NCBI GenBank assembly: GCA_017938695.1
Contig: JAGBBA010000020.1
Coordinates: 1 to 39,536, forward strand
Origin: Clostridia bacterium
GTDB taxonomy: Bacteria; Bacillota; Clostridia; Christensenellales; Aristaeellaceae
Reading direction: 5' to 3'
DNA length: 39,536 bases
Of the stretch, positions 3,791-37,240 are shown one piece after another. The notes below the pieces were generated by a model, which saw only the letters and a program-made list of their open reading frames with translations, was not told the origin of the DNA and ran no database searches. Position 1 is the first letter of the stretch. Each line of letters opens with the position of its first letter. The position numbers were made by a program, and so were the translations under genes.

Positions 3791-3882
3791 CAGGGGCTTT
3801 GCCCCTGCCAGAGGGCTCTGCCCTCTGGACTCCCGGGAGGGGCGTTGCCCCTCCACCCCACGAAGGGCCTTCGGCCCTTTCG
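3791..3882 (+). repeat. hairpin array 1 (after pyrH)
   Basis: Four consecutive hairpins: 3791-3807 (CAGGGGC/GCCCCTG), 3808-3828 (CCAGAGGG/CCCTCTGG, followed by ACTCCC), 3836-3854 (GGAGGGGC/GCCCCTCC) and 3861-3882 (CGAAGGGCC/GGCCCTTTCG, followed by AAACCC). The array starts directly behind the pyrH stop and may double as a 3' stabiliser or terminator. It opens the 549-base gene-free stretch 3790-4338; the rest holds the elements listed next. Confidence 0.85.
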
Positions 3883-3922
3883 AAACCCATCCTGCGTAAG
3901 CATGCAGGGTGGGTTTTCTGTT

Positions 3923-3954
3923 GGGGTCACGGCGCATAACGGATGCGCCGCGAC
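3923..3954 (+). repeat. GTCACGGCGC hairpin, copy 1
   Basis: Left arm GTCACGGCGCAT (3926-3937), right arm ATGCGCCGCGAC (3943-3954), preceded by GGG. The same hairpin with compensatory changes at the loop end occurs at 11650-11678 and, reversed, at 37062-37091. Confidence 0.8.
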
Positions 3955-4033
3955 GCAGGGCAAGGAGCACCTTGGCTCCCCTTGGGGGTGAGCGATGCGA
4001 GCGTCGCCAGTGGCGACAAAGAGCGAGCTGAGC

Positions 4034-4178
4034 GAATCAACCGAAACGAGCAAACGAGCGTGAGCGAGAGTGCGATGATTGAGGTTGCGGATAGTTGTCG
4101 CCGTAGGCGACTGAGAGGGGTAGCTTCCATTGTGCAAAGGGAGGTGTCAGCCGCTTGCGGCTGACGGAGGGATTGCCT
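4034..4178 (+). repeat. degenerate intergenic repeat (MITE-like module)
   Basis: A stretch rich in GAGCGAG-type words, then a hairpin around GTCGCC/GGCGAC (about 4097-4112) and the segment GGGAGGTGTCAGCCGC with its partner GCGGCTGAC (about 4140-4165). The last part matches, in reverse, 36982-37010. No protein-like reading frame was found. Confidence 0.55.
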
Positions 4179-4219
4179 GCTGCATCTCCCGCAGCGTACC
4201 TTGTTTGCCCAGCCCACAC

Positions 4220-4258
4220 TTAATTCCGCATTCCGCAATCTGCATTCCGAATTCACTC
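4220..4258 (+). repeat. heptamer array upstream of ppk2
   Basis: Degenerate seven-base repeat reading ATTCCGC, ATTCCGC, AATCTGC, ATTCCGA on the plus strand. It ends about 20 bases before the ppk2 -35 box. It has the same sense relative to the downstream gene as the arrays before eamA, pyrK, ispG and dxr. Confidence 0.7.
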
Positions 4259-4279
4259 ATCTCCTCCCGTTTTCAGTGG

Positions 4280-4308
4280 TTGTCATTTTTTCGACAAAGG
4301 TGTATAAT
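4280..4308 (+). promoter_or_regulatory. sigma-A promoter of ppk2
   Basis: TTGTCA (4280-4285), 17-base spacer, TATAAT (4303-4308). Transcription would begin near 4315, about 24 bases before the start codon. Confidence 0.85.
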
Positions 4309-4338
4309 AAAATGACTATGATGTGAGGAGCGTTTACC

Positions 4339-5202
4339 GTGTCTGCAAAAGAGTATCGCTATGATGGTTCCCGCAAGCTTTGCCTGAAGGATGTGCCCAC
4401 CACCGCTGGCGAGCATAAAAAGGACAAGGCGGAGCTGATCGAGAAGACCGCTGAAAATATCGCCCGTGCCGCTTTGCTGCAGGAGAAGCTGTACGCAGCA
4501 GGAGAAGAGGGCCTGGTCATTGCCTTGCAGGCGCGTGATGCTGCTGGCAAGGACAGCCTGATCAAGAAGGTGTTTTCCGGGCTGAACCCTGCGGCCCTGG
4601 AGGTCAATTCCTTCAAGGCCCCCAACTCCACCGAGCTGAGCCACGACTATCTGTGGCGCATCAATCAGGCCCTGCCGCCCCGCGGCAAAATCGGCCTGTT
4701 CAACCGCTCCCACTATGAGGATGTGCTGGCCGTGCGTGTGCACCATCTGGAGAAAAATTATCGCCTGGCCAAGCGGTGCGTGACGGAGGATTTCTTTGAC
4801 CGCCGTTTCCGCCAGCTGCGGCACTGGGAGGAGTACCTGTACGAGAACGGCCTGCGCATGGTGAAGATTTTCCTCAACGTGAGCCGCGACGAGCAGCGTC
4901 GCCGCTTCCTGGACCGCCTGGAGCTGGAAGAGAAGCACTGGAAGCTTTCCACCTCCGACATGAAGGAGCGCGCCCTGTGGGCCGAGTATGATGCGGCGTA
5001 TGAGGATTGCATCAACCAAACGGCCACGCCGGAATGCCCCTGGTATGTGCTGCCGGCGGACAACAAGTGGTACACCCGCTACCTGATGAGCGAGATCCTG
5101 GTGGATATCCTGGAAGAGATGGATCCTCAGTTCCCGCCGCTGGATCCTGCCGAGGCAGCGAAGATCCCTCAGATCATGGTGGAACTGGAAATGGATGATT
5201 AG
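4339..5202 (+). CDS. ppk2: polyphosphate kinase 2 family protein
   Basis: Transfers phosphate between inorganic polyphosphate and nucleotides (AMP/ADP/GDP classes exist; the class is not decided here). The 287-residue protein is of normal single-domain length. It contains the Walker A-type loop QARDAAGKDS (64-73), the Walker B region GLFNRSHYEDVL (119-130), and the lid region with basic residues RDEQRRRFLDRL. The start is GTG 4339, set by GAGGAG (4325-4330) with eight bases of spacing. It is a single-gene transcript: strong promoter upstream, strong terminator downstream. A Ppx-type polyphosphatase lies at 28023-28931, so both synthesis/use and hydrolysis of polyphosphate are encoded here. 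Confidence 0.92.
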   Translation: MSAKEYRYDGSRKLCLKDVPTTAGEHKKDKAELIEKTAENIARAALLQEKLYAAGEEGLVIALQARDAAGKDSLIKKVFSGLNPAALEVNSFKAPNSTELSHDYLWRINQALPPRGKIGLFNRSHYEDVLAVRVHHLEKNYRLAKRCVTEDFFDRRFRQLRHWEEYLYENGLRMVKIFLNVSRDEQRRRFLDRLELEEKHWKLSTSDMKERALWAEYDAAYEDCINQTATPECPWYVLPADNKWYTRYLMSEILVDILEEMDPQFPPLDPAEAAKIPQIMVELEMDD

Positions 5203-5217
5203 AAACCAGATGTGACA

Positions 5218-5254
5218 AAGAGGACGGCAAAAAGCATGTGCCGTCCTCTTTTTT
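5218..5254 (+). terminator. intrinsic terminator after ppk2
   Basis: Twelve-pair stem AAGAGGACGGCA (5218-5229) with TGCCGTCCTCTT (5239-5250), nine-base loop, T-run through 5254. Confidence 0.95.
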
Positions 5255-5338
5255 AATATATTTGTAACGAATAGACGTTTTTGCCCCATATTATACAAAA
5301 TGAAGGAAAAGTTTCATATACTTTCATTTTGAACGATG

Positions 5339-5352
5339 TGATAACGTTACCA
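5339..5352. promoter_or_regulatory. cre-like operator 1
   Basis: TGATAACGTTACCA matches 13 of 14 positions of the catabolite-response consensus TGWAARCGYTWNCW. It lies 62 bases (centre to centre, about six helical turns) upstream of the second site. It could bind CcpA or another LacI-family regulator. Confidence 0.6.
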
Positions 5353-5399
5353 ATTGCATAAAAACATTGTAAAAACATGAAAAACTTGCAGGAAAAGTA

Positions 5400-5428
5400 T
5401 TGACAACGTTTTCGAAGTCTGCTATGAT
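5400..5428 (+). promoter_or_regulatory. promoter of the HPr-like gene, overlapping cre-like operator 2
   Basis: TTGACA (5400-5405), 17-base spacer, TATGAT (5423-5428). The -35 box and the spacer contain TGACAACGTTTTCG (5401-5414), 12 of 14 to the cre consensus, so binding there would block RNA polymerase. Confidence 0.75.
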
Positions 5429-5434
5429 GTGCTC

Positions 5435-5512
5435 GTCAGCAGGAAAGAAAATGCTGACAAGGCAACCACCTGATGGAAAATCAGGTAAACGGGATTTGCC
5501 GCAGGAGCGGCA
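5435..5512 (+). promoter_or_regulatory. structured 5' leader of the HPr-like gene
   Basis: Three hairpins follow the transcription start: GTCAGC/GCTGAC (5435-5458), ACCTGAT/ATCAGGT (5468-5486) and TGCCGC/GCGGCA (5497-5512). In addition GGCAA (5461-5465) can pair with TTGCC (5496-5500), enclosing the second hairpin and excluding the third. No T-run follows, so if it switches it would more likely act on stability or translation. I do not recognise a known riboswitch class. Confidence 0.5.
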
Positions 5513-5542
5513 GATCAGTGTGTGACGAGAGGAGTAATGAAC

Positions 5543-5797
5543 ATGAGCGAAAAGCTGTACACCCGTGCACATATCCGCCTGAACAACCAGGCCGAAGTGA
5601 TCACCTTCATCCAGGATCTGTGCAAGTTTGAAGATACGTTCTCCATTGAAAATGCCGCTGGCAACCACCGCGTGGACGCCAAGTCCGTGATCGGTGTGAT
5701 GTACACCATGCTGGATTTCCCGGACGAAATGTATCTGGTGAACGACACCCACAACGGCGTGGTTCCTTCCTTCGTGGACGCTTACCGCGTGCTGTAA
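5543..5797 (+). CDS. HPr/Crh-like protein lacking the PTS histidine
   Basis: Eighty-four residues with the size and strand-helix order of HPr. The segment HRVDAKSVIGVM (42-53) aligns with the HPr/Crh regulatory region KSIMGVM, so S48 corresponds to Ser46, the HPr kinase target. The catalytic loop of HPr (GIHARPA, His15) is replaced by LNNQAEV around residues 13-19; no His is available there. That combination is what defines Crh in Bacillus, a CcpA corepressor that does not transfer phosphate, but many clostridial HPr-fold proteins of this kind are uncharacterised. ATG 5543 is eight bases from GGAG (5531-5534); ATG 5537 would be too close. The gene stands alone between its own promoter and terminator. 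Confidence 0.75.
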   Translation: MSEKLYTRAHIRLNNQAEVITFIQDLCKFEDTFSIENAAGNHRVDAKSVIGVMYTMLDFPDEMYLVNDTHNGVVPSFVDAYRVL

Positions 5798-5806
5798 GGA
5801 TGCAAC

Positions 5807-5840
5807 AAGAAAAAGACCTCCATTAGGAGGTCTTTTTCTT
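5807..5840. terminator. bidirectional terminator between convergent genes
   Basis: Fourteen-pair perfect inverted repeat AAGAAAAAGACCTC (5807-5820) and GAGGTCTTTTTCTT (5827-5840), six-base loop. The flanking A and T runs give a terminator in both directions; its right end meets the stop codon of the minus-strand phosphatase gene. Confidence 0.92.
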
Positions 5841-6405
5841 ATGCCAGCACATCGATGGACTGAATGTCCGTGCACTGCATGCCGTCAAAGGTGAAGCGCA
5901 CCACCCAGGGCATCAGGCGGCGGATGCGGTTGAAGCCGTCAAAGCCGAAGGAGGGGTCGTAATGGTGGATAATGGTGCTCAGGGCTGTGCCGTGGCTGCC
6001 GATGACCACCGTCTGCCCGGCATGCTGCTGCAGCACATGGTGCAGCGCAGCCACGTTGCGCTGCTGCACTTCGCGCAGGGATTCGCCGCCGGGAAGCTTG
6101 TAGTCAAAATCGGCCCACTGGGCCTGGCAGTAGCTGTTGAAATCCGCGATCCACTCACCGGTGATGCACCGCTCCCGGAAATCGCTGACCTCCTGCACGG
6201 CGAGGCCGCGCTGATCCGCCACGGGCTGTACGGTGTCCACAGCGCGCTTGTAAGGGCTGGACAGCACCGCGTCCACCGGCACATCGGCCAGCAGATCCCG
6301 CACCAGCAGGCGGTCTTGCAGGCCCTTGGGAGTCAGCTCGCGGGTCAGGTCGTCATGGTTGTCAAAGTTGGGCTGGGCGTGGCGCACAAAGTAGACGGTG
6401 GTCAT
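5839..6405 (-). CDS. histidine phosphatase family protein
   Basis: Phosphoglycerate mutase-like phosphatase using a phosphohistidine intermediate. The 188-residue protein starts MTTVYFVRHAQ with the catalytic RHA (8-10), has SSPYKRA (49-55), an acidic ERCITGEW stretch and the second histidine in GSHGTAL (H138). The physiological substrate is unknown; relatives act on phosphosugars, nucleotides or cobalamin intermediates. The start at 6405 overlaps the stop of the upstream acetyltransferase by four bases (ATGA), implying translational coupling. An upstream extension to 6450 would begin inside the acetyltransferase and lacks family similarity. Confidence 0.88.
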   Translation of the reverse strand: MTTVYFVRHAQPNFDNHDDLTRELTPKGLQDRLLVRDLLADVPVDAVLSSPYKRAVDTVQPVADQRGLAVQEVSDFRERCITGEWIADFNSYCQAQWADFDYKLPGGESLREVQQRNVAALHHVLQQHAGQTVVIGSHGTALSTIIHHYDPSFGFDGFNRIRRLMPWVVRFTFDGMQCTDIQSIDVLA

Positions 6406-6956
6406 GCGTTGCGCTCCTCGGCCAGCAGGGCGTAGTAGCAGGCATCGCAAATGCCCTGGTTGTTCCAGTCAGACTGGCGCAACGTGCCTTCGTACTTCAT
6501 GCCGCATTTCTTCATCACGCCGCCGGAGTGAGGATTCCTCGGTTCATGCCTTGCTTCAATGCGGTTCATGCCCACTTCATCAAACAGGAAGTCCATCACG
6601 GCCTGCAGGGCTTCGGTCATGATGCCCTGGTGCCACCACTTGCGGCCCATAGCATAGCCCACATGCGCCTTGGATGCCCGGTCGTCATGCTCCACCACAG
6701 CAATGCTGCCGATGGGCTGCCCCAGGTCCTTGAGCACAATGGCCCACTGGTAATAGTCAGGCTTCTCGTACTCCGGGCACCACTGGGAAAGCACCCAGCG
6801 GCTTGCCTCCACACTGCTGTGGGTGGGCCACATGAGGTACTTGGTCACTTCCGGATCGCTGGCCCAGTTGTCATACATGGCCTGGGCATCCTCCATCGTA
6901 AACCGCCGCAAAATCAGCCTATTGGTTTCAATGGTACACGTTCCCTTATGCTGCAC
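6402..6956 (-). CDS. GNAT family N-acetyltransferase (RimJ/RimL-like)
   Basis: Acetyl-CoA-dependent acetyltransferase of the RimJ/RimL type, which modify N-terminal amines of proteins or small amines; target unknown. Typical features are the opening IETNRLILRRFTMEDAQAMY, the strand GSIAVVEHD, the acetyl-CoA region MGRKWWHQGIMTEALQAV and the conserved KCGMKYEGTLRQ near the C-terminus. I place the start at GTG 6956 because GGGAGG (6969-6964) precedes it by seven bases; no ATG is as well positioned. It is coupled to the histidine phosphatase gene. Confidence 0.85.
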   Translation of the reverse strand: MQHKGTCTIETNRLILRRFTMEDAQAMYDNWASDPEVTKYLMWPTHSSVEASRWVLSQWCPEYEKPDYYQWAIVLKDLGQPIGSIAVVEHDDRASKAHVGYAMGRKWWHQGIMTEALQAVMDFLFDEVGMNRIEARHEPRNPHSGGVMKKCGMKYEGTLRQSDWNNQGICDACYYALLAEERNA

Positions 6957-7029
6957 AGAAACACCTCCCAATCAGTAAGAAAAATGCGACCTTCTATGCG
7001 AAAGTCGCCGCTTTTTCGGGGTGGCGCGG

Positions 7030-7078
7030 GGAAGGTCAAGCTGCGCCGCCAGTGGCGGATGCAGCAGCTTGGCCTTCC
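7030..7078. repeat. long imperfect stem-loop between ftsY and the acetyltransferase
   Basis: GGAAGGTCAAGCTGC (7030-7044) pairs with GCAGCTTGGCCTTCC (7064-7078); inside is a second hairpin CCGCC/GGCGG (7046-7058). A separate palindrome GGCTTTTTCT/AGAAAAAGCC lies at 7141-7161, close to the ftsY stop, but lacks a T-run on the minus strand. Together they fill most of the spacer 6957-7177. Confidence 0.6.
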
Positions 7079-7177
7079 AATGAGGCACAGAGTCCAGCCG
7101 GCTTATGCTGGATGGACGACAATGCCGAATTGAGGGGTAGGGCTTTTTCTCAGAAAAAGCCGCCCTCCCGAGTCACA

Positions 7178-8092: not shown

Positions 8093-8123
8093 GGGTATAA
8101 CCTCCCGGGGTTTGATATTGGAT

Positions 8124-8152
8124 AGTGTATCACATTTGCGGGTTTTGGGCAA
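8124..8152 (-). promoter_or_regulatory. promoter of ftsY
   Basis: Read on the minus strand: TTGCCC (8152-8147), 17-base spacer, TACACT (8129-8124), with TG one base before the -10 box (extended -10). It lies directly after the eamA stop codon. Confidence 0.7.
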
Positions 8153-8153
8153 G

Positions 8154-9047: not shown

Positions 9048-9069
9048 AAAGGCACTTCTTTCTAATGAG

Positions 9070-9103
9070 GAATTCGAAATGCGGCATTCGGAATGTAGTT
9101 TGT
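9070..9103 (-). repeat. diverged heptamer array upstream of eamA
   Basis: On the plus strand GAATTCG, AAATGCG, GCATTCG, GAATGTA in a seven-base register; in the sense of eamA it reads as ATTCCGA-type units. It ends about 23 bases before the eamA start codon. Confidence 0.5.
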
Positions 9104-9131
9104 GGCGTGGCAGAAAGCTGCCTTTCGCTCG

Positions 9132-9584: not shown

Positions 9585-9600
9585 TTCTGGCCTCACTAAC

Positions 9601-11454: not shown

Positions 11455-11482
11455 GGAAGCCCCTCCTTTAACACAATGCCTT

Positions 11483-11511: not shown

Positions 11512-11516
11512 CCCCG

Positions 11517-11604
11517 CCAGAGGGGACTCCGTCCCCTCTGGACTCCCCGGCCAAAGGGGCTCTGCCCCTTTGGAAACCCCGCTTAAGGGTCTTCGACCCT
11601 TAAG
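11517..11604 (+). repeat. hairpin array 2 (between mnmG and cwlD)
   Basis: Three hairpins, one of each type: 11517-11541 (CCAGAGGGG/CCCCTCTGG, then ACTCC), 11551-11573 (CCAAAGGGG/CCCCTTTGG, then AAACC) and 11582-11604 (CTTAAGGGT/ACCCTTAAG, then AATCC). The array lies in the 303-base divergent spacer 11455-11757, between the mnmG promoter and the cwlD start. Confidence 0.88.
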
Positions 11605-11646
11605 AATCCCGTTCGGGGAAGGGCGTTGCTGGGTGATCTCCGAGTT

Positions 11647-11678
11647 GGGGTCACGGCGCGCGGAGGGCGCGCCGCGAC
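11647..11678 (+). repeat. GTCACGGCGC hairpin, copy 2
   Basis: Left arm GTCACGGCGCGC (11650-11661), right arm GCGCGCCGCGAC (11667-11678), loop GGAGG. The same A/C mismatch near the base is present in all three copies while the loop-proximal pairs differ and still match. Confidence 0.8.
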
Positions 11679-17262: not shown

Positions 17263-17318
17263 ATAGCTTCCTTTCATCTTACGCAGATTAACACAGGAGA
17301 GCGCAAAAAAACGGGAGT

Positions 17319-17411
17319 CCAGAGGGCCGAACGGCCCTTTGGTGGTGGAGTCCAGAGGAGGCAACGCCTCCTCTGGTCAGGGGATTCCTAAGGGGATGAA
17401 ATCCTCTTAGG
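17319..17411 (-). repeat. hairpin array 3 (between pyrE and pyrB)
   Basis: Minus-strand order: 17411-17387 (CCTAAGAGG/CCCCTTAGG, then AATCC), 17376-17352 (CCAGAGGAGG/CCTCCTCTGG, then ACTCC), 17342-17319 (CCAAAGGGCC/GGCCCTCTGG, then ACTCC). The first hairpin contains the pyrE stop codon. The third has mismatched arms: an AAAGGG left arm with a CTCTGG right arm. It may tune expression of pyrB relative to pyrE. Confidence 0.85.
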
Positions 17412-18063: not shown

Positions 18064-18102
18064 GGTATTGTCTCCTTTATATTTTCAAAATAGGTGATTG
18101 CC

Positions 18103-18220
18103 GAAGGTTTCCAAAGGGCATTGCGTAGGTGCGACTCCCCGGTGGGGAGTTGCCGAAGGCAAAGCACCAAGCGATGTTCAGTATCGGAAAGCCCTTTGGT
18201 CGCCTCCGCAGAGGCGAAAT
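18103..18220 (-). repeat. repeat copy between pyrF and pyrE
   Basis: Plus strand: TTTCCAAAGGGC (18110-18121) pairs with GCCCTTTGG (18191-18199) around a variable insert; this is followed by TCGCCTCCGCAGAGGCGAAA (18200-18219), itself a small hairpin. The latter recurs exactly at 19013-19033, so pyrF is flanked by direct repeats. Confidence 0.75.
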
Positions 18221-18222: not shown

Positions 18223-18921
18223 TTATTCGCCCAGGAAATCGTGGATGCAGCGTTCATAGGCGGCAACGGGGTTTTCCGCCGCGGTAATCGGCCGTCCCAC
18301 CACGATGTAGTCGCTGGCGGCGCGGGCCTTTTCGGGGGTCATGATGCGCACCTGGTCGCCCACGTCGCCGTCAGCGAAGCGGATGCCGGGGGTCACGGTC
18401 ATGAAGTCGGGGCCGCAGGCTTCCTTCACCAGCGCAGCCTCCAGGGGGGAGCACACCACGCCCATCAGGCCAGCGGCCTTGGCGTTCTGGGCGTACTTCT
18501 TGACGGTGTCGGGCATGGTGGCGTTGATCAGCAGCTCATTCTGCATGCGCTCCTCGCTGGTGGAGGTGAGCTGGGTCACGGCCAGCAGGGTGGCGCAGGA
18601 GCCGTCCTCCTTGGTGAGGCCTTCCTTGGCGGCTTCCATCATGGCGATGGTGCCGGAGGCGTGCAGGTTGGTCATGTCCACGTCCAGGTGGCGCAGCACC
18701 ATCATGGCCTTTTTGACGGTGTTGGGGATGTCGTGCAGCTTCAGATCCAGGAAGATCTTATGGCCGCGGGCCTTGATCTCCTTCACGATGGCAGGGCCTT
18801 CGGCGTAATACAGCTCCATGCCGATCTTCACGAAGGGCTTGCGGCCGGTGAACTGGTCGAGGAAAGCCAGGGTCTTTTCCTTGTTTTCAAAGTCCAGGGC
18901 AATGATGACGTCCTTAGCCAT
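18223..18921 (-). CDS. pyrF: orotidine 5'-phosphate decarboxylase
   Basis: Decarboxylates OMP to UMP, the last step of de novo pyrimidine synthesis. The 232-residue TIM barrel keeps the catalytic set K32 (FVKIG) and D59-K61-D64 (DLKLHD), plus [15 protein letters not shown] and the terminal [12 protein letters not shown] phosphate-binding loop. AGGAGG lies nine bases before ATG 18921. The gene is flanked on both sides by copies of the same repeat, and its stop codon is two bases from one of them. Confidence 0.97.
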
Positions 18922-18977: not shown

Positions 18978-19110
18978 GAAGGGGTGGAGGGGGCGATCGG
19001 AAAGCCCCCTCCTCGCCTCCGCAGAGGCGAAATCTTTTTGTAACGCAGGGGTTTCGCGCCTGCGGGCGCGACCAAAGGGCTTTCCGGTCGCCCTTTGGAA
19101 ACCTTCGGCG
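18978..19110. repeat. inverted pair of repeat copies between pyrD and pyrF
   Basis: Left copy GGAAAGCCC (18999-19007) through TCGCCTCCGCAGAGGCGAAA (19013-19032); right copy in reverse, about 19052-19105, containing CCAAAGGG (19072-19079) and CCCTTTGG (19092-19099) followed by AAACC. The pair can fold into one long branched hairpin. The spacer 18922-19120 holds nothing else recognisable. Confidence 0.7.
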
Positions 19111-21171: not shown

Positions 21172-21285
21172 GAATTCGGAATTCGGAATGCGTAATGCGG
21201 AATTTGGTTTGTGTTCTAAACGCTGGAAAGCGCACAGAGCCAGTAATAATTCCGAATTCCAAATTCAGCATTCCGAATTAATTCT
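21172..21285. repeat. inverted heptamer arrays between pyrC and pyrK
   Basis: Left arm 21172-21208 (GAATTCG, GAATTCG, GAATGCG, TAATGCG, GAATTTG) and right arm about 21247-21285 (ATTCCGA, ATTCCAA, ATTCAGC, ATTCCGA) can pair into a long stem with a 38-base loop. The right arm contains the pyrC stop codon at 21278-21280; the left arm ends at the pyrK ribosome binding site. Confidence 0.75.
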
Positions 21286-22634: not shown

Positions 22635-24557
22635 TCAGTCCTTGCGCTGCACCTTTTTCTGCACCTTGTTTTCGTACATCTTGGCGTCGGCGATGCGGAT
22701 GATACCCATCACCGTCATGCCGCTGGACAGGGGGATGCAGGCACTGCCCACGCTGGCAGAAAGCTGGTAGGGCTTGTTCAGCTGGGCGTTGGCGGCATCC
22801 AGGGCAGCGTAGAAGCGGTCGATGCGGCGTTGGGCTTCGGTGGCTTCGTAGCTGCCGATGCCGATGACGTAGAACTCGTCGCCGCCGGCGCGGACGCACA
22901 GTTCGCCGTCGTTGGTCATGCTCATGGTGGCGTTGCTGATGGCGGTGATGCCTGCATCGCCGTCGGCATGGCCGAAGGTGTCGTTGATGAATTTCAGCCT
23001 GTCCATGTCAATGACGAAGGCCAGCACGCTGTCATCGGGCTTGGCGCGCTGGAGCATGTGATCCAGCATCAGCTCCATGCCCCGGCGGTTGTAGGCACCG
23101 GTCATGCCGTCGCGGGTGGAAAGGGATTCCAGCCGGTGAGCGGTGCGGGCGATGTGCAGGCCGGAGTTGACGTTTTTTAGCCAGTTGCGGACGATGCAGG
23201 TCACCTGCCGGGTATCCTCCAGCCCGTAGCGAAGCACCGCATAGCCCATGGTGTGATCCAGGAAGTGCACCGGCACAAAATAGAAAATGGAGGCTTCTCT
23301 GTCCTGCTCGTGCAGCTGGGGGATCATCTGGGCGGTGTCGAACAGCGGGCCGTTCTCGCAGTGGCCGGAGCCCAATTGGGGCGTGGTGTGCACGGCCAGC
23401 TTGATCCTGCTGGGATAGCCCACCTTGGCGCACAGCTCGGCATTGAGCCAGTTTTCATCAAGGCAGAGGTAAAAATCCCGGTAGGGCCGGAGCAGATAGG
23501 TTTTCAGGAAGATCTGCTCAATGCACTCCTGGGGGGAGGTGGTATCGGACATGTATTCGGTCATGTTGCTTTCCAGCAGGAGGCCGATATCCACCGCATC
23601 GTTTTCATCGGAGAAATCATGGCTGATGTTGTAGACGGACTCGCGCATCGTGGCCATGATGTTGGGCACGTTGAAGTTGCAGCCGCAGCTCATGCCCAGG
23701 GCGAGATGCTCTGCCGCATTGGAAACAAAGGGTGCCGGCTGGGCGCCGGGTTCCATCATGCCGCGAAGGTGGTCGATGGCGCGGGCGGCCACACCCTGGG
23801 TGTCAGGGGTGGCACTGGAAATGGTCACCTGGTTCACGATGCCCTCGGGGGTGGCGTCAAAGCCGGTGACGATGATGTCCTCGGGTACGCGCACGCCGTG
23901 GCGGAGCAGGTATTTCGTCAGGCCGATGGCCATGTGGTCGCTGGCGCAGATCACCGCTTCGGGCCGCTCAATCTCGCCATCGACGATCCGCTGGCCCAGC
24001 TTCGCACCGCCGGGATACCAGAAATCGCCGTAGATGACCATGCTCTCGTCATAGGGGATATCCCGGGCGGCCAGTGCGTCGGCAAAGCCAGCCAGGCGGT
24101 CGGTGGCGTCGGGGTCGCCCTGGGGGCCGGTGAGGCAATACAGCTTGCGGCAGTGATGGGCATCGATCACATGCTCGGTGATCTCCTTCAATAAAAGCCG
24201 GTTGCTGGTGGTGAAGGTGGGGTACTCCGGCATCAGCGGGCCCAGGCACACCACGGGCTTTTGGCATTTTTCCTTCAGCAGCCGGGGGATCTCGGGGATG
24301 ATCTGTCGGGAGGCGCTGTCCATCAGGGAAAGGGTGTCCACGATCACGCCGTCCAGGATATCGAAATTGATGAGATTATAGATGTTCCGCTCGCCCGTCA
24401 GATAGTTCTGCTGGGACAGGGAACAGTCCGCCAGCATGGAAACAACGGCCACGTCGTAGTCGTACACTTGGCAGCGTTCGCAAATGCCCTTGATGATACG
24501 GGTGGCGTAAATGGTTTCCGGGGTGGCGGTGATAAAGCCGATAATCTTGCGCGACAT
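22635..24557 (-). CDS. LacI-type sensor/GGDEF diguanylate cyclase, copy A
   Basis: Predicted cytoplasmic c-di-GMP synthase controlled by a sugar-type ligand. Residues 1-285 are a LacI-type periplasmic-binding fold without the HTH headpiece: the hallmark is CASDHMAIGL (204-213) followed by GVRVPEDIIVTGFDATPE (221-238). Then comes a conserved MSCGCN (289-294), a region of unknown fold (295-480), and a GGDEF domain (483-640) with DGMTGAYNRRG and an intact GGDEF (558-562). No RxxD inhibitory site is seen before GGDEF. No signal peptide or membrane segment. AGGAGG precedes ATG 24557. It follows copy B by 48 bases and is probably cotranscribed with it. Confidence 0.9.
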   Translation of the reverse strand: MSRKIIGFITATPETIYATRIIKGICERCQVYDYDVAVVSMLADCSLSQQNYLTGERNIYNLINFDILDGVIVDTLSLMDSASRQIIPEIPRLLKEKCQKPVVCLGPLMPEYPTFTTSNRLLLKEITEHVIDAHHCRKLYCLTGPQGDPDATDRLAGFADALAARDIPYDESMVIYGDFWYPGGAKLGQRIVDGEIERPEAVICASDHMAIGLTKYLLRHGVRVPEDIIVTGFDATPEGIVNQVTISSATPDTQGVAARAIDHLRGMMEPGAQPAPFVSNAAEHLALGMSCGCNFNVPNIMATMRESVYNISHDFSDENDAVDIGLLLESNMTEYMSDTTSPQECIEQIFLKTYLLRPYRDFYLCLDENWLNAELCAKVGYPSRIKLAVHTTPQLGSGHCENGPLFDTAQMIPQLHEQDREASIFYFVPVHFLDHTMGYAVLRYGLEDTRQVTCIVRNWLKNVNSGLHIARTAHRLESLSTRDGMTGAYNRRGMELMLDHMLQRAKPDDSVLAFVIDMDRLKFINDTFGHADGDAGITAISNATMSMTNDGELCVRAGGDEFYVIGIGSYEATEAQRRIDRFYAALDAANAQLNKPYQLSASVGSACIPLSSGMTVMGIIRIADAKMYENKVQKKVQRKD

Positions 24558-24605: not shown

Positions 24606-26528
24606 TCAGTCCTTGCGCTGGAGCTTCTTCTGCACCTTGTTTTCGTACATTTTGGCATCGGCGATGCGGATGATGCCCATCACCGTCATGCCGCTGGCCA
24701 GGGGGATGCAGGCACTGCCGATGCTGGCGGAAAGGGCATAGGGCTTGTTCAGCTGGGCGTTGATCTTTTCGATCTGCTCCTGGAAGCGGCCGATGCGCTG
24801 CTGAGCCTCGGCGGGATCATAGCTGCCGATGCCGATGACGTAGAACTCGTCGCCGCCTGCGCGGACGCAAAGCTCGCCCTCTTCCGTGATGCTCATGGCG
24901 GCAGCGCAGATGGCGGTGATGCCTGCATCGCCGTCGGCATGGCCGTAGGTATCGTTGACGTACTTCAGCCGGTCCATGTCGATAACGAAGGCCAGCACGT
25001 TATCTTCGGGCTTGGCGCGCTGGAGCATATGATCCAGCATCAGCTCCATGCCCCGGCGGTTGAAGGCACCGGTCATGCCGTCACGGGTGGAGAGGGACTC
25101 CAGCCGGTGGGCGGTGCGGGTGATGTGCAGGCCGGAGTTCACGTTCTTCAGCCAGGTGCGCAGCACACAGGTCATGCGGTGGGGTGCATCGAGGGTGTAG
25201 CGTAGGGCGGCGTAGCCCATGGGCAGATCCAGGAAATGCACCGGCATAAAGAAGAACACCGAGGGCTCGTGGCTTTCGCTGCCCAGCTCCGGCAGCATGA
25301 GGGCGGTATCGAACACGGGGCCGTTTTCGCAGTAGCTGGCTTCGCTTTCGAAAATGTTGCGGATCACCTGCTGGATGCGCTTGGGATAGCCGGTTTTGCA
25401 GCACAGCTCGGCGTTCTGCCAGTTTTCATCCAGGCAGAGGGAAAACTCGCTGTACTGATCCAGCAGATAGGTGAAGGCGTTGATCTGCCGGATACACTCC
25501 TGGGGCGTGCTGCTTTCGGAGAGGTACTCCAGCATGTTGCTTTCGTTCAGCGTACCGATGTCCACCTTGCGGTGATCGGAGGAGAAGTCGGGGTTGGTAT
25601 AGTAGAAATACTCGCCGTACTGCTCCATGATCTGCGACAGGTCGGGGTTGCAGCCGCAGCTCATGCCCATGCGCAGGTGCTTGCTGGCGTTGGACTGATA
25701 GGGCAGCAGGGGCGCATCGGGCTCCATGGTGCGGCGCAGCTCGTCAATGGCCATGGCGGCCACGGACTCGCAGTCCGGTTCGCAGCTGGTGATGGTGATG
25801 CGGTTGATGGCGGCCTCTCTGGTGGCATCGAAGCCGGTGACCACGACGTCGTCCGGCACGCGGATGCCGCTTTCGATCAGCCGGTTGGTCAGGCCCAGGG
25901 CCATGTGGTCGCTGGCGCAGACGATGGCCTCGGGCATGGGCAGCTCGCCGGCGATGATCTGCTTGGCCAGGTTGGCACCGCCGAAGTACCAGAAGTCGCC
26001 GTAAATGATCTTGTCTTCTTCAAAGGGGAGGCCGCAGGCGGCCAGGCCGTCCTTGAAGCCGTTCAGGCGGTCGATGGACTCGGGGATATCCTTGGGGCCG
26101 GCCAGGAAATACAGGTTACGGCGGTGATGGACGTTGACCACATGCTCGGTGATCTCCTGGAAAACCCGGCGGTCGCTGGCCACAAATGCCGGATAATCCT
26201 CCACCTTGGCACCGATGGTCACCAGCGGCTTGTTGCATTTTTCGTGCAGAAGCTTGGTGATGGGGGCCATCAGCCGATGGGTGAGGCTTTCCATCAGGGA
26301 GGGAGCATCCAGCACAACGGCGTCCAGCCGGTCGAAATTGATCAGGTTGTAGATGTTCATTTCGCCTGCCAGGAATTTCTCCTGGGGCAGGCCGGGGGAG
26401 CACAGCGCGCCGAAAACCGCCAGCTCGTAGCCGTAATCCTGGCAACGGGAACAAACGCCGTCGATCAGGCGTGAGGCGAAATCAGATTCCGGGGCAGCGG
26501 TGATCAGGCCGATGACCTTGCGGGCCAT
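24606..26528 (-). CDS. LacI-type sensor/GGDEF diguanylate cyclase, copy B
   Basis: Paralogue of copy A with exactly the same length (640) and domain order. The sensor keeps CASDHMALGL and GIRVPDDVVVTGFDATRE, the link motif is MSCGCN, and GGDEF is at 558-562. By eye the GGDEF halves are nearly identical while the sensor and middle parts differ at many positions, so the two probably respond to different ligands with a common output. AGGAGGA lies eight bases before ATG 26528. The promoter faces away from the xylanase gene, across a 212-base divergent spacer, which suggests a carbohydrate ligand. Confidence 0.9.
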   Translation of the reverse strand: MARKVIGLITAAPESDFASRLIDGVCSRCQDYGYELAVFGALCSPGLPQEKFLAGEMNIYNLINFDRLDAVVLDAPSLMESLTHRLMAPITKLLHEKCNKPLVTIGAKVEDYPAFVASDRRVFQEITEHVVNVHHRRNLYFLAGPKDIPESIDRLNGFKDGLAACGLPFEEDKIIYGDFWYFGGANLAKQIIAGELPMPEAIVCASDHMALGLTNRLIESGIRVPDDVVVTGFDATREAAINRITITSCEPDCESVAAMAIDELRRTMEPDAPLLPYQSNASKHLRMGMSCGCNPDLSQIMEQYGEYFYYTNPDFSSDHRKVDIGTLNESNMLEYLSESSTPQECIRQINAFTYLLDQYSEFSLCLDENWQNAELCCKTGYPKRIQQVIRNIFESEASYCENGPVFDTALMLPELGSESHEPSVFFFMPVHFLDLPMGYAALRYTLDAPHRMTCVLRTWLKNVNSGLHITRTAHRLESLSTRDGMTGAFNRRGMELMLDHMLQRAKPEDNVLAFVIDMDRLKYVNDTYGHADGDAGITAICAAAMSITEEGELCVRAGGDEFYVIGIGSYDPAEAQQRIGRFQEQIEKINAQLNKPYALSASIGSACIPLASGMTVMGIIRIADAKMYENKVQKKLQRKD

Positions 26529-30004: not shown

Positions 30005-30049
30005 GGGCATCCCTCCTTGATAGGATACCCTATGCGCTGCGAAGGCCGC

Positions 30050-30856: not shown

Positions 30857-30912
30857 GGTTAGGGTACCTCCTTAGGGTGTATCATTGGTTATTTGGTGGT
30901 ATATGCTGCGTT

Positions 30913-31029: not shown

Positions 31030-31053
31030 CATGCCGGGTCATAACCCAGCTGC

Positions 31054-34000: not shown

Positions 34001-35484
34001 ATACTGTCCGCCACTGTGCCGCCAATCAGCTTCACCGCGCCGATCTCGATCACGCGATCCGTCTGGGTATTCAGGCCGGTGGTTTCAAAGTCCAGCACCA
34101 CGATGGGCTCGTCCACGCTGCGGCCGTCGGCATCCTGCACGACGAGGGCCTCGTTGATCAGATACCCTTCGCAGCCGGGGATCAGCTTGATGGGCTGCTT
34201 TTTCACCGCATTGAAGGCGGCAGGGAAAGCCTGCACCACGCCATGATCGGTGATGGCCACGGCCGGGTGGCCCCACTTGATGGCGCGCTTGATCAGATCG
34301 CCAGCGGGGGTCAGGGCGTCCATGGTGGACATGTTGGTGTGCATGTGCAGCTCGATGCGCTTTTCCTCGGCGGTGTCCTCGCGCTCGATCTTTTCCATGG
34401 GTACGATGTCGCGCACAGAGATGGATAGCTCCTTGGCAAAGCTGTCGTACAGGCACTCGCCGCGCACCTTCACGTTCATGCCCATTTTGATCTGCTCCAC
34501 CTTGTCCATAACCGCCTTGCGCTCCTCCTCGGTGATGGGCGGCGGCGGTGCATCCTCGTCAGCCTTTTTGCCGAAGTGCTGGTTGCGGAAGCGCATGAAC
34601 GTCTTGCACAGGATGGACGAAGTGTAGTCGGTGATGGCGAAGGTCAAAAGCAGCAGCTCGCCGCCCTTGAGCTCCTTGGTCTCCACCTTGAAGATATCGC
34701 CCTGCACCACCACCAGGCCGCTGTCGCTGGCCAGCTCCTTCATTTCGATGGGGCGGTCGGCGATGCCGCGGCCCATGATGGGCTTGCCCAGGGCGGTGTT
34801 GGTCATCTGGGGGAAGATGGAATCCTTCTTCTTTTCGGGGGCAGCCTCGGGCTTGGGTTCCCTGGGCTGACGGGGTGCGGCAGGCTTGCGTTCCTTCTTT
34901 TCAGCGGGGGTCTGGGCGTTGCGCTTGGCCAATTCTTCCATGGAAATGGCCTGGCTGTGCTCCTTTTCGCGTTCTTCGCGCAGGGCGGCCAAGCGGGCTT
35001 CCTGGTCGCCTGCCACGGTGAGCTCCACCTTTACCTCGGCGGAGAAAATGTCCTTCACGGCCTGGGCCAGGCGGGCGGATACATTCTGCCTGCCCATGTA
35101 TTCCAGGGAGAAGGGGTCGGGGAAGGTGAGGGTAATGCGGTCGCCCTCGCACCGCCAGTCGATCTGGTCCATCCAGCTGATGGAGGCCGGGTAGTTGCGC
35201 TTGAGGAAGTCGGTCAGCACCTGTTTGTACGCGCTGATATTCTCCAGAAAATCTTCTTTCAGGCCGGGGCTGACCACGCGCAGGGCCAGGGGCTTTTGCG
35301 GAAAGATGCGCCGCAGGAGGCTCTCCAGCTTGAGGAAGGTCTTTTCTTCCACCAGCGTCAGGCTGTCGAAGGTAATGTACACCTTCTCCTGGGCCTTGAC
35401 GTACACCACCCTGGGCGATTGCAGCTGGCCCTTCAAATGGGGCAGTTCCTGATAAATCTGCCCCAGCAAATCTTCGTAGCTCAT
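31054..35484 (-). CDS. polC: DNA polymerase III PolC-type alpha subunit
   Basis: Gram-positive replicative DNA polymerase with built-in proofreading. The 1476-residue length is normal. Order of parts: N-terminal domain, OB-fold region, PHP domain beginning near residue 378 (ELHMHTNMSTMDAL), DnaQ-type 3'-5' exonuclease inserted in the PHP domain (VVLDFETTGLN near 461 to AHRAVHDATATA near 605), then the polymerase core with GSRGSVGSS, a zinc-binding pair CTHC and CPIC near 948-970, and the catalytic PDIDLNFSGEYQ near 1006. ATG 35484 follows GGAG; the open frame upstream is repeat DNA. Classic neighbour of ispG. Confidence 0.98.
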   Translation of the reverse strand: MSYEDLLGQIYQELPHLKGQLQSPRVVYVKAQEKVYITFDSLTLVEEKTFLKLESLLRRIFPQKPLALRVVSPGLKEDFLENISAYKQVLTDFLKRNYPASISWMDQIDWRCEGDRITLTFPDPFSLEYMGRQNVSARLAQAVKDIFSAEVKVELTVAGDQEARLAALREEREKEHSQAISMEELAKRNAQTPAEKKERKPAAPRQPREPKPEAAPEKKKDSIFPQMTNTALGKPIMGRGIADRPIEMKELASDSGLVVVQGDIFKVETKELKGGELLLLTFAITDYTSSILCKTFMRFRNQHFGKKADEDAPPPPITEEERKAVMDKVEQIKMGMNVKVRGECLYDSFAKELSISVRDIVPMEKIEREDTAEEKRIELHMHTNMSTMDALTPAGDLIKRAIKWGHPAVAITDHGVVQAFPAAFNAVKKQPIKLIPGCEGYLINEALVVQDADGRSVDEPIVVLDFETTGLNTQTDRVIEIGAVKLIGGTVADSMSVLVNPKQPLKPKITEITGISDNMLADKETAETAIPALMDFIGDSPIAAHNASFDVAVLKAELRRLGRTFSAPVLDTLTLSRKLYPEMKSHKLGSVCKQLGVSLKNAHRAVHDATATAQILARMYKEAEEKHGITTLEGLNTLKGGAIGESYHVILLVKTQEGLVNLNRLVSIGHLDYFRRRPHMPKNIIQKYREGLIIGSACEAGELFQAVLKGESWDKLKEIAEWYDYLEIQPIGNNEFMLRNGMVKDVEGLRDLNRTIVKLGEEIGKPVVATGDVHFMDPHNAMNRAIIQAGMGFDDCDQQAPLYFKTTNEMLDEFAYLGKEKAYEVVIANPRMIADQVDKLQLFPIHPKGEDTFQPLWEDAADNIQNMTWGTAREMYGDDLPEIVVKRIEKELKSIIGYGFATLYNIAQKLVKKSNDDGYLVGSRGSVGSSLVARFCGITEVNALPPHYRCTHCRKGFFDVDKSKYQVGVDLPDKDCPICGKPLTKDGFDIPFEVFLGFEGDKVPDIDLNFSGEYQNRAHHYVEELFGHDHVFRAGTISGLADKTAYGYVAKYMEERGIQAGNTEKERLMAGCVGVKRTTGQHPGGMVVVPKEYEIYQFTAVNHPADDLNSDFTTTHFDFNSMHDILVKLDCLGHDDPTVIHMLEELTGIPPTEVPLDCPKVRSLFQSPEALGVTKEQIDCTTGTFGIPEFGTAFVRGMLDDTKPSTMEELIRISGLSHGTDVWLGNAQDLIRSGTAVLRECVCCRDDIMNYLIDKGVQPKLAFTTMESVRKGKGLKPEMEQAMYDNNVPQWFIDSCKKIKYMFPKGHAVAYVTSALRIAWFKVHHPQAYYCAYFTVRGDGFDAATMLCDPDTLRQRIRDIKNNDKATAKDKEAQTSLELVLEMNMRGIKFLPVDLYKSQVNRFVIEDGNLRCPFTSLGGLGESAALPIVAAREERPFISVEDLQDRAHVGSAVVELLRAQGALEGLSETSQVSMFF

Positions 35485-35507
35485 GGTACTCCTTTCGCCT
35501 TCGGCGA

Positions 35508-35612
35508 CCAAAGGGGCTTTGCCCCTTTGGAAACCCCACCAGAGAGGGCTCTGCCCTCTCTGGACTCTCCTGCGAAGGGCCATTCGGCCCTTTCGAAACC
35601 CGTTTTTTCGGG
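35508..35612 (+). repeat. hairpin array 4 (between ispG and polC)
   Basis: Plus-strand order: 35508-35530 (CCAAAGGGG/CCCCTTTGG, then AAACC), 35539-35563 (CCAGAGAGGG/CCCTCTCTGG, then ACTCT), 35573-35595 (CGAAGGGCC/GGCCCTTTCG, then AAACC), then CCCG-T6-CGGG (35599-35612). It begins 13 bases from the polC ribosome binding site and lies opposite in orientation to polC. The 316-base spacer 35485-35800 also holds the next two elements. Confidence 0.85.
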
Positions 35613-35668
35613 CGTGTTGCTTGGGGGTGTATGTAGGGGCGATCTGTGATCGTCCGCGTTTCGGAGCG

Positions 35669-35740
35669 TTCCACCTTGATGGAAAGCCTTCCCCTTGAGG
35701 GGAAGGTGGCCGAGCGTAAGCGAGGCCGGATGAGGTGGAA
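35669..35740. repeat. short MITE-like element related to 30913-31029
   Basis: TTCCACCT (35669-35676) and AGGTGGAA (35733-35740) as ends; inside CCTTCCCCT/AGGGGAAGG and GGCC...GGCC hairpins, the former identical to the right half of the larger element. Confidence 0.65.
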
Positions 35741-35762
35741 ACGACGGCAGCGGAATGCAATG

Positions 35763-35790
35763 ATAGGGGCTGCATGGCAGCAGCCCCTAT
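35763..35790. repeat. hairpin after ispG
   Basis: Eleven-pair perfect stem ATAGGGGCTGC (35763-35773) with GCAGCCCCTAT (35780-35790). A T-rich tail exists only on the plus strand, so on the ispG strand it is more likely a processing or stability hairpin than a terminator. Confidence 0.6.
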
Positions 35791-35800
35791 ATTTTACTTG

Positions 35801-36853
35801 TTACTTGGTTTCAGCAATGCGGCGGGCAGCCTTGATGAGGGCTTCGGCCAGGTCGCCGTCCACGCGCATGGCGGTCTGGCCCTTCACGAACAGCGCGCCG
35901 CCGGTCTTGCCGCCAGCAATGCCCACGTCAGCTTCGCGGGCTTCGCCAGGGCCGTTGACCACACAGCCCATCACGGCCACCTTCAGTGGCACCTTGATAT
36001 CGCTGAGCTCCTTTTCCACCCGGGCGGCGATGCCAGCCACGTCGATGCAGGTACGGCCGCAGGTGGGGCAGGAAATCAGCTGCACGCCCTGGGTGCGCAT
36101 GTTTAGTGCGCGGAGGATATCCCAAGCGGCCTTGGCTTCGGGCAGGGGGTCGCCGGTGAGGCTCACGCGGATGGTGTTGCCGATGCCGCGCACCAGCAGG
36201 CCGCCGATACCGATGGCACTCTTGATGGTGCCCTGGCCGGGAAGGCCGGCCTCGGTAACGCCTACGTGCAGGGGGTAATCGCACTTCTGGGCGGCCAGCT
36301 CGTAGGTATCCACGGTGAGCTTCACGTCGCTGGCCTTCATGGACAGAACAATGTCCTCAAAGCCTTCCTTTTCCAGCATACGGGCGTGCTGCAGGGCGGA
36401 TTCCACCATGCCCTCGGCGCAGGGGCCGCCGTACTTGGCCAGGATATCCTTCTCAATAGAGCCGGAGTTCACGCCGATGCGGATCGGGATGTGGTGCATC
36501 TTGGCGCAGGCGGCCAGCACCTTCACGTTGCCCTCGCCGCCGATGTTGCCGGGGTTGATGCGCAGCTTGCTGATGCCGTTCTCCGCAGCCATCACGGCCA
36601 GGCGGTGATCGAAGTGGATATCCGCCACCAGCGGCACGGGGGACTGATCCACCAGCTGGCGCACGGCCAGGGCGCAGGCCTCGTCATACACAGAAATGCG
36701 GACGATGTCGCAGCCAGCCTCGGCCAGAGCCTTGATCTGGGCCAGGGTAGCCTCCACATCGCGGGTATCGGTATTGGTCATGGACTGAACCCACACGGGG
36801 TTATGTCCGCCCATGGTCAGGCGGCCGACGGAAACGAGGCGAGTGTTGTACAT
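35801..36853 (-). CDS. ispG: 4-hydroxy-3-methylbut-2-enyl diphosphate synthase
   Basis: Iron-sulfur enzyme of the MEP pathway converting MEcPP to HMBPP. The 350-residue bacterial short form has the TIM-barrel start VGRLTMGGHNPVWVQSMTNTDT, LRINPGNIG, and the [4Fe-4S] ligands C262, C265 and C297 with E304 in GCVVNGPGE. GGAGG lies seven bases before ATG 36853. The frame continues upstream only through repeat sequence. It sits between rseP and polC as in other Firmicutes. Confidence 0.97.
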   Translation of the reverse strand: MYNTRLVSVGRLTMGGHNPVWVQSMTNTDTRDVEATLAQIKALAEAGCDIVRISVYDEACALAVRQLVDQSPVPLVADIHFDHRLAVMAAENGISKLRINPGNIGGEGNVKVLAACAKMHHIPIRIGVNSGSIEKDILAKYGGPCAEGMVESALQHARMLEKEGFEDIVLSMKASDVKLTVDTYELAAQKCDYPLHVGVTEAGLPGQGTIKSAIGIGGLLVRGIGNTIRVSLTGDPLPEAKAAWDILRALNMRTQGVQLISCPTCGRTCIDVAGIAARVEKELSDIKVPLKVAVMGCVVNGPGEAREADVGIAGGKTGGALFVKGQTAMRVDGDLAEALIKAARRIAETK

Positions 36854-36870
36854 GGTGAAGCCTCCATAAG

Positions 36871-36906
36871 TAATTCGGAATTCGGAATTCGGAATTAGAA
36901 ATTGAG
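36871..36906 (-). repeat. heptamer array upstream of ispG
   Basis: Plus strand (GAATTCG)n with a final GAATTAG; in the ispG sense ATTCCGA units. It ends about ten bases before the ispG ribosome binding site. Confidence 0.8.
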
Positions 36907-36981
36907 AGTGCAGACCGGGCGAATGCAGTTCGCCCCTGCAGGGACAGGGAAAGCCTGACGTTGGAACAAGCGGCAGAACCA

Positions 36982-37056
36982 CTCCTTCCGTCAGCCACAA
37001 GCGGCTGCCACCTCCCTCGGGGAGGGAGGCGTTTGGCGGCGCGAAGCCTTACAGTC
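36982..37056 (-). repeat. MITE-like module, copy 2
   Basis: Read on the minus strand it contains GGGAGGTG, then CAGCCGCTTGTGGCTGAC, then GGAAGG, matching the module at about 4140-4170. A further hairpin CCTCCCTC/GAGGGAGG is at about 37011-37029. Confidence 0.6.
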
Positions 37057-37061
37057 CCCGC

Positions 37062-37091
37062 GTCGCGGCGCAACCGTATTTGCGCCGTGAC
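37062..37091 (-). repeat. GTCACGGCGC hairpin, copy 3
   Basis: Minus strand GTCACGGCGCAA (37091-37080) with TTGCGCCGCGAC (37073-37062). The loop-end pairs differ from copies 1 and 2 but remain complementary. Confidence 0.8.
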
Positions 37092-37118
37092 CCCAGCTTA
37101 TATGCGCGTCCCATGCCA

Positions 37119-37240
37119 TCCCCGAAAGGGATTCTTAAGGGCTGAAAGCCCTTAAGCGGGTTGTCAGGGCAGAGCCCTGACCGGGAGTCCAGAGGGCAGA
37201 GCCCTCTGGTGGGGATTCTAAAGGGGCAAAGCCCCTTTAG
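37119..37240 (-). repeat. hairpin array 5 (after rseP)
   Basis: Minus-strand order: 37240-37218 (CTAAAGGGG/CCCCTTTAG, then AATCC), 37209-37189 (CCAGAGGG/CCCTCTGG, then ACTCC), 37181-37163 (GTCAGGG/CCCTGAC, then AACCC), 37156-37134 (CTTAAGGGC/GCCCTTAAG, then AATCC), plus a short ATCCC/GGGAT. The first arm contains the rseP stop codon. With the elements above it fills the 383-base spacer 36854-37236. Confidence 0.88.

Follow-up and report, generated by a model that had tools for sequence, protein, structure and literature searches.

The window analysed here, 39,536 nucleotides making up contig JAGBBA010000020.1 of a Clostridia bacterium (Aristaeellaceae; GenBank assembly GCA_017938695.1), carries five intergenic arrays of short hairpins (3791-3882, 11517-11604, 17319-17411, 35508-35612 and 37119-37240) in which hairpins are followed by short, C-rich tags. 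We propose that such a module, of the form arm-loop-arm-tag, has the potential to form an intrastrand DNA triplex of class I, purine motif, with the tag as its reverse-Hoogsteen third strand, a reading to which the sequence patterns lead us to give a probability of roughly 0.65. A preliminary description of this DNA had placed the arrays correctly and had noticed that, in the array's own direction, hairpins ending CTCTGG are followed by ACTCC or ACTCT (6/6), those ending TTTGG or TTTCG by AAACC (4/4), and those ending TTAAG, TTAGG or TTTAG by AATCC (4/4). These associations hold, but the tag, which had been taken for a linker label particular to each hairpin type, instead mirrors the arm with a shift of two bases, as fits a reverse-Hoogsteen third strand. 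The supposed three main hairpin types grow to about a dozen arm types in the source genome, and the arrays contain three further hairpins (3790-3807; 3836-3854, with CCTCC followed by ACCCC; and, on the minus strand, 37163-37181, with TGAC followed by AACCC).

Base by base, the tag mirrors the right arm such that an arm C is answered by a tag C and an arm T by a tag A or T; with the outermost stem pair as position 1, tag base k answers stem position k+2. The rule was measured in 439.5 kb, comprising the window (contig C70 of a 2.53-Mb draft, the source genome) and 400 kb of the same genome (20 stretches from five contigs picked for length, hence non-random), where clustered hairpins were collected without using the tag and oriented by their pyrimidine loop. 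This yielded 90 hairpins, 71 of which were scored for offset once the CGAA type, with a left arm shorter by one base, had been set aside. At offset 2, 346/366 positions agreed (0.945 vs. a mean of 0.699 and a highest value of 0.765 in 500 shuffles of tags among modules), part of the shortfall coming, by eye, from misplaced stem ends; none of offsets 0, 1, 4 and 5 exceeded its own highest shuffle, and offset 3 did so only just (0.661 vs. 0.655). A left-arm G was answered by a tag C in 220/236 positions, and a left-arm A by A in 93, by T in 33 and by another base in 4 (n=130). The same offset recurred in G008, a species with partly different arms (688/803, 0.857 vs. 0.689, highest 0.726), and in the eight modules of G006 (38/41, 0.927; highest shuffle 0.878), and was not seen in 273 readings of hairpins outside arrays (0.398 vs. 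0.370, highest 0.412).

Tag and arm also change together within a type. We recounted 106 modules of four arm types within the genus, taking the C-richer flank as the tag side with no other criterion, counting overlapping stretches once (L204 is the window; L061 lies inside L018 and L028 inside L053), and discarding exact repeats as well as 12 rows whose two flanks were equally rich in C. The length of the tag's C run equalled that of the arm's G run in 86/106 modules, and 0/5000 within-type permutations reached the observed covariance. AGAGG arms were followed by ACTCC and then G in 5/6, AGAGGG arms by ACTCCC in 17/21 as listed, AGAGGAGG arms by ACTCC(A/T)CC, that is ACTCCACC or ACTCCTCC, in 3/3, AGAGAGGG arms by ACTCTCC in 2/2, and GTCAGGG arms by AACCC and then G in 6/6. 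That the right arm and not the left predicts the tag, as had first been proposed, is borne out by chimeric hairpins picked out blind to the tag (left CCAAA, right TCTGG), which carry the right arm's ACTCC in 13/13; a single reverse chimera carries AAACC, again according to its right arm, and in the TTTCG type, where the shorter left arm CGAA leaves a bulged stem, the tag AAA matches the right arm and not the left. When next bases were tabulated across the 439.5 kb, [GC]C-preceded CTCTGG (n=43, not all of them hairpin arms) was followed by ACTCC in 18 cases and by any other 5-mer in at most 2, and the source genome holds 144 matches to CYCTGGANTCC (a few being CCCTGG forms) and 109 to CCTTTSGAAACC, with 0 for the backwards patterns. 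The rule is not absolute: CCAAAGGGC..GCCCTTTGG is followed by AATCC in locus L015, some CTCTGG copies are followed by ACACC, and the hairpin at 3790-3807 (arm CCCCTG) has no tag ahead of the next hairpin.

Class I elements have been defined by the order reverse-Hoogsteen strand, purine arm, pyrimidine arm, by the triads G.G:C, A.A:T and T.A:T, and by stems of 6-15 triads with loops of 1-6 bases (Holder et al., 2015; PMC4666352). Read along its G-rich strand, a module consists of third strand, short turn, purine arm, loop and pyrimidine arm, which is the class I order with the same three triads. Scanning the 439.5 kb for class I motifs (stem of at least 6, no mismatch, loops 1-6) returned 29 vs. 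0-2 in 20 first-order shuffles, six perfect-triad motifs lying within the window; class II motifs were few (4 vs. 0 in one shuffle). With the turn excluded, the tag base opposite an arm A was A in 50, T in 34 and another base in 3 positions (n=87), and since both A and T stand there the purine motif fits and the pyrimidine motif does not: a pyrimidine-motif triplex on the C-rich strand would explain 34/87 of these positions, the purine motif 84/87. A G-quadruplex was rejected by argument, as it needs G runs alone and no mirroring of A positions. With reference to earlier work, the main text of Holder et al. says that RNA cannot adopt the purine motif, which points to DNA. A recurrent stem mismatch, left A with right C, would be A.C in mRNA and a G.T wobble on the G-rich strand; a symmetric recount found it in 13 vs. 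3 distinct hairpins, and in 12 vs. 2 of a second, partly shared set, an asymmetry that comes mostly from one chimeric type and is suggestive only.

The arrays are ordered and sit at gene ends. Of 30 intergenic multi-module arrays in the source-genome sample, 23 follow a gene on their own strand (16 co-directional, 7 convergent) and 7 do not; a further 3 arrays located at the ends of stretches were set aside, as were 18 single hits, 12 of which fall inside genes. In most arrays the G-rich strand is the upstream gene's template strand. When single modules are counted along with arrays, 26 follow a gene on their own strand, and 16 of these start within -7 to +5 of its stop codon (gene positions come from a crude codon-based caller, and array starts were set 16 nt ahead of the first tag word); in some the stop codon falls inside the first stem (37237-37239, for example, and the 17313-17411 array). 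Hairpins with a TTC loop are last in 25/29 source arrays and occur elsewhere only twice (0/10000 within-array permutations), the CGAA type being array-final in 19/19. The TTC rule holds less strongly in G008 (last in 11/38 arrays, elsewhere 7 times), where the CAAG type is last in 30/38. The earlier proposal of exchangeable modules is sustained in part: the arm-loop-arm-tag form and the many combinations stand, and the order is not free, because one hairpin class is nearly always array-final. By eye, a T run or a GGGTTTTT hairpin ends a minority of the 33 arrays listed, and inner modules have no T run; a terminator consensus scan of the first array, the only one scanned, found none, including at the hairpin 3883..3916. 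The individual modules are given in Table 1. A further hairpin of variable loop, GGGTCACGGCGC, is linked to the arrays (window 3926-3954, 11650-11678 and 37062-37091), and 19/21 source-sample copies of its core word lie at most 160 nt after a module. Nine source contigs (C7, C10, C12, C14, C22, C42, C47, C52 and C53) have modules within 200 bases of their first base, as if assemblies break at arrays.

Table 1. Modules and adjoining hairpins of the five arrays, with window positions.
Position	Strand	Arms and loop	Tag	Remarks
3790..3807	+	CCAGGGGC-TTT-GCCCCTG		untagged; right after stop codon (3787-3789) of amino-acid-kinase-family gene
3808..3834	+	CCAGAGGGC-TCT-GCCCTCTGG	ACTCCC	minus strand GGGAGT cc AGAGGG cagag CCCTCT, six triads
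3836..3859	+	GGAGGGGC-GTT-GCCCCTCC	ACCCC	
3861..3888	+	CGAAGGGCC-TTC-GGCCCTTTCG	AAACCC	terminal; left arm one base short
3883..3916	+	second hairpin, ending GGGTTT		left side is the reused AAACCC tag; terminator-like by eye only
3926..3954	+	GTCACGGCGC..GCGCCGCGAC		array-following hairpin
11517..11548	+	CCAGAGGGGAC-TCC-GTCCCCTCTGG	ACTCCCC	
11551..11580	+	CCAAAGGGGC-TCT-GCCCCTTTGG	AAACCCC	minus strand GGGGTTT cc AAAGGGG .. CCCCTTT, seven triads
11582..11610	+	CTTAAGGGTC-TTC-GACCCTTAAG	AATCCC	terminal
17380..17411	-	CCTAAGAGGAT-TTC-ATCCCCTTAGG	AATCCCC	one A/C mismatch; left arm holds upstream gene's stop TAA
17344..17376	-	CCAGAGGAGGC-GTT-GCCTCCTCTGG	ACTCCACC	eight perfect triads, both A.A:T and T.A:T; plus strand GGTGGAGT cc AGAGGAGG caacg CCTCCTCT
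17313..17342	-	left CCAAAGGGCC, right GGCCCTCTGG	ACTCCC	last module, chimeric; tag as right arm predicts
35508..35537	+	CCAAAGGGGC-TTT-GCCCCTTTGG	AAACCCC	seven triads on minus strand
35539..35570	+	CCAGAGAGGGC-TCT-GCCCTCTCTGG	ACTCTCC	
35573..35601	+	CGAAGGGCC-ATTC-GGCCCTTTCG	AAACCC	terminal; T run next
37211..37240	-	CTAAAGGGGC-TTT-GCCCCTTTAG	AATCCCC	seven triads on plus strand; left arm holds stop TAA of M50-peptidase (rseP-like) gene
37183..37209	-	CCAGAGGGC-TCT-GCCCTCTGG	ACTCCC	six triads on plus strand
37158..37181	-	GTCAGGGC-TCT-GCCCTGAC	AACCC	
37128..37156	-	CTTAAGGGCT-TTC-AGCCCTTAAG	AATCCC	terminal

Modules of this kind are common in the genus and recur far from it. The word CTCTGGACTCC is present in 18/18 genus genomes searched (1 to 137 copies) and in 22/40 of all genomes searched, those outside the genus having 0-3 copies. 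Downstream of the rseP-like gene, the source species has four modules before ispG, G015 three, G006 two and G012 three, all different; in G004, G013, G011, G005 and G008 there is no array and the next start codon follows some 15-50 bases on (the next gene and its distance being judged by eye), G002 has modules further downstream, and the remaining relatives have different neighbours or incomplete contigs. Whole arrays have thus been gained or lost at one site within the genus. A 26-base module, AAAGGGGC NNN GCCCCTTTGGAAACC, is exact in at least 109 stretches of named genomes, by title at least 70 from Clostridia, Clostridiales, Oscillospiraceae or Ruminococcus and at least 35 from Desulfovibrionaceae (including Solidesulfovibrio and Desulfovibrio), with one each from SAR324, Spirochaetota, Actinomycetota and Fibrobacter among the matches listed, single hits in metagenome-assembled genomes that may be contamination. 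Hairpins at these loci were scored with the searched module itself excluded and the better of both flanks taken, the 11 loci carrying a GGGTCACGGCGC hairpin being grouped apart as window-like; the highest z fell at offset 2 in the window-like loci (44 hairpins, 171/210, z 9.4), in the 35 Desulfovibrionaceae loci (66 hairpins, 225/317, z 6.7) and in the 63 other loci (185 hairpins, 691/931, 0.742, z 11.5). A shorter generic form of the module with other arm bases was found in 29/297 genomes searched, and its reversed control in 0. In contig C3 of G187, the 13 listed copies (36 in the genome) of GGGGC NNN GCCCC (C/T)AT ACCCC are all on one strand, which may reflect replication direction. Carriage by phages was rejected (viral contigs with the CCAAAG module, 0; with the CCAGAG module, 1), as was carriage by plasmids, for which one array was searched (partial matches only, at most 38% of its length, E-values of at least 0.06).

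Several observations weigh against an intrastrand triplex and have to be set beside the rule. The types are few (about a dozen) and the copies related, the commonest tags being inherited in common, so that positions are not independent events; what carries the case is the types and the changes inside them rather than the tally of 366 positions. Where arms are short (ACCC or ACCCC tags) a module offers 4-5 triads only and is weak on the length criterion, the turn bases T.T and T.C are non-standard triads, and the mismatch asymmetry shrinks to about 10 vs. 5 (by eye) when the chimeric type is counted once. Offset 2 is not the only one above its shuffles in G008, where offsets 1 and 3 are too, though by less; among the 63 other loci, agreement at offset 1 (695/932, 0.746, z 7.1) is as frequent as at offset 2, and offsets 3 and 4 likewise rise above shuffles, so that outside the genus part of the signal may come from general C-rich flanks. 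Clustered hairpin rows numbered only 4 in 99.8 kb from other genera of the family, and none was found in 27.8 kb of G012. Of the known triplex repeats, TMECO gave no sign of a triplex in Escherichia coli cells by dimethyl sulfate (DMS) footprinting, and earlier work cited in the main text of the same paper reported no promoter or terminator activity and no in vivo effect of PIT elements (Holder et al., 2015; PMC4666352).

We reasoned that the most serious competitor would be a set of REP-like families: every arm type would go back to a single old repeat that had a flank of its own, the tag would be copied along, and the mirror would arise by coincidence from the arms being rich in G and the flanks in C. 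Near-identical copies within a type, the recurrence of types in many species and the raised neighbouring offsets in Clostridia beyond the relatives of the window all speak for this; such a coincidence, however, would not be expected to give a single offset across about a dozen types, and within a type the changes in the tag track the interruptions and run length of the arm, so that we regard it as unlikely. The arrays do resemble REP and BIME elements in being short palindromes in intergenic clusters, also between the genes of operons. BIMEs alternate in orientation, whereas the array modules of the source sample run all one way (33/33 clusters of at least two tag words); in one Desulfovibrionaceae locus (L097) neighbouring modules stand, by eye, in opposite orientation.

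The arrays might instead act as RNA: hairpins of the 3' untranslated region, joined by C-rich linkers that stay single-stranded, could shield the ends of mRNAs, serve as a binding site for Rho or another protein, or bring transcription to an end. Their position behind same-strand genes and their starts at stop codons (as placed by the crude caller) would suit such a role, as would the array-final TTC-loop hairpins and the T runs or GGGTTTTT hairpins that close some arrays. An RNA element, however, has no need of the mirror rule, a tag A opposite an arm A is unfit for a pyrimidine-motif triplex and RNA reportedly does not adopt the purine motif (PMC4666352, main text), the mRNA form would carry the A.C stem mismatch (again suggestive only), and at the gathering score the window has 0 matches to Rfam families (10 related loci gave two tRNAs and nothing else). 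We consider an RNA function for the modules improbable; an RNA role for the terminal TTC-loop hairpin alone would be compatible with the triplex model.

The ends of IS200/IS605 elements combine a hairpin with a short flank, resembling a hairpin with its type-specific tag. Yet mobilisation by Y1 (HUH) transposases such as RAYT, in which bases beside the hairpin guide cleavage, is very improbable even though the source genome encodes one Y1 protein: guide pairing predicts no mirror, Y1 genes do not track copy number (G009, with 9 copies of CTCTGGACTCC, has two Y1 proteins), and neither G008 (113 copies; 94% complete) nor G015 (51 copies; 84% complete), both of them copy-rich but incomplete drafts, has a Y1 match, on which ground we rejected it.

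Among the explanations considered, a third strand alone would predict the sequence rule, and elements of this anatomy, for which the preliminary description knew of no named family, already go by the name of potential intrastrand triplex (PIT) elements in Holder et al. (2015; PMC4666352), where Hoyne and Maher are cited for them. The main text of that paper describes PIT, BoxC and TMECO elements as multi-copy, G/C-rich and intergenic, with a purine-motif intrastrand triplex code, short loops and copy numbers that differ greatly between related genomes, all of which the present modules resemble. TMECO is a class II element (pyrimidine arm first) of one highly conserved sequence, with five cases of inverted-orientation pairs, whereas the window arrays are class I, with about a dozen arm sequences and matching third strands, and are built of head-to-tail modules in ordered arrays that often abut stop codons. 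The TMECO/BoxC pattern, CCCTCNCCC N3-6 GGGNGAGGG N3 GGGNGAGGG, had its first two stems exact in 0/234 loci, and the G-rich stems of TMECO match the window only with 3 mismatches, in 5 places vs. 1.8 by chance (3/100 shuffles reach 5), none of them in an array. The words Clostridi-, Firmicutes and Ruminococc- are absent from the main text of PMC4666352, and we found no description in the open-licence literature of covarying triplex modules in ordered arrays, often abutting stop codons. Triplex repeats as such are therefore known already, and what appears to be new here are covarying modules in ordered arrays, often at stop codons.

The nucleotide analogue 7-deaza-dGTP lacks the N7 required for Hoogsteen pairing. 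In Desulfovibrio desulfuricans ND132, 'intractable' GC-rich gap 2 ends in CCCCCTCTGGACTCCC, which equals the right arm and tag of the CCAGAG module; templates with 7-deaza-dGTP were used for gaps 1 and 2, and a strand-displacing polymerase for all gaps (Hurt et al., 2012; PMC3409199). Like the arrays, these gaps lie at or near gene junctions; they were treated as GC-rich secondary structure, the word triplex being absent from the main text of that paper. Since 7-deaza-dGTP also loosens plain GC-rich hairpins, the ND132 gap fits a triplex without proving it.

Other repeats and genes of the window were recorded alongside. An intergenic repeat of AATTCCG/CGGAATT units occurs at 4221-4258, 9063-9109, 21173-21284, 36858-36917 and 39500-39531 and, by eye, also in relatives. 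An OMP-decarboxylase-like gene (18223-18921) lies between inverted repeats at 18100-18219 and 19052-19109, of which 20 bp are identical and 35 bp match at 89%; their end, CCTTTGGAAACCTTCGG, is found again in L019 and has the look of a second family of repeats sharing the CCAAAGGG hairpin. Two adjacent, similar genes of 640 aa (22635-24557 and 24606-26528) each combine a periplasmic-binding-protein-like domain with GGDEF.

If the modules do fold as triplexes, the tag would turn back over 2-4 bases and run antiparallel along the stem's major groove, G on G:C and A or T on A:T. Such a fold would form transiently on the single-stranded G-rich strand, behind RNA polymerase or at a replication fork, and the folded module may stall polymerases and so act as a barrier at gene ends; a block to DNA polymerase in vitro is reported in earlier work on PIT elements cited in the main text of PMC4666352. 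Stalling together with template slippage could in turn produce the gain, loss and chimera formation of modules. That the tags mirror the arm in the way a third strand would require suggests that the ability to fold as a triplex has been kept by evolution. More tentatively, and with the odds rather against it, strings of triplexes, present in at least two phyla and often behind stop codons, may owe their arm-tag covariation to selection on the triplex, probably as a template-strand barrier marking gene ends, with the last module specialised. The best-studied triplex repeat is nearly invariant, so that selection for the triplex cannot there be separated from simple copying; here, many arms with matching third strands would act like compensatory changes in RNA helices. 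The arrays would thereby offer a direct test case for whether intrastrand triplexes matter in cells, and they may be a cause of some of the hard stops met in genome sequencing.

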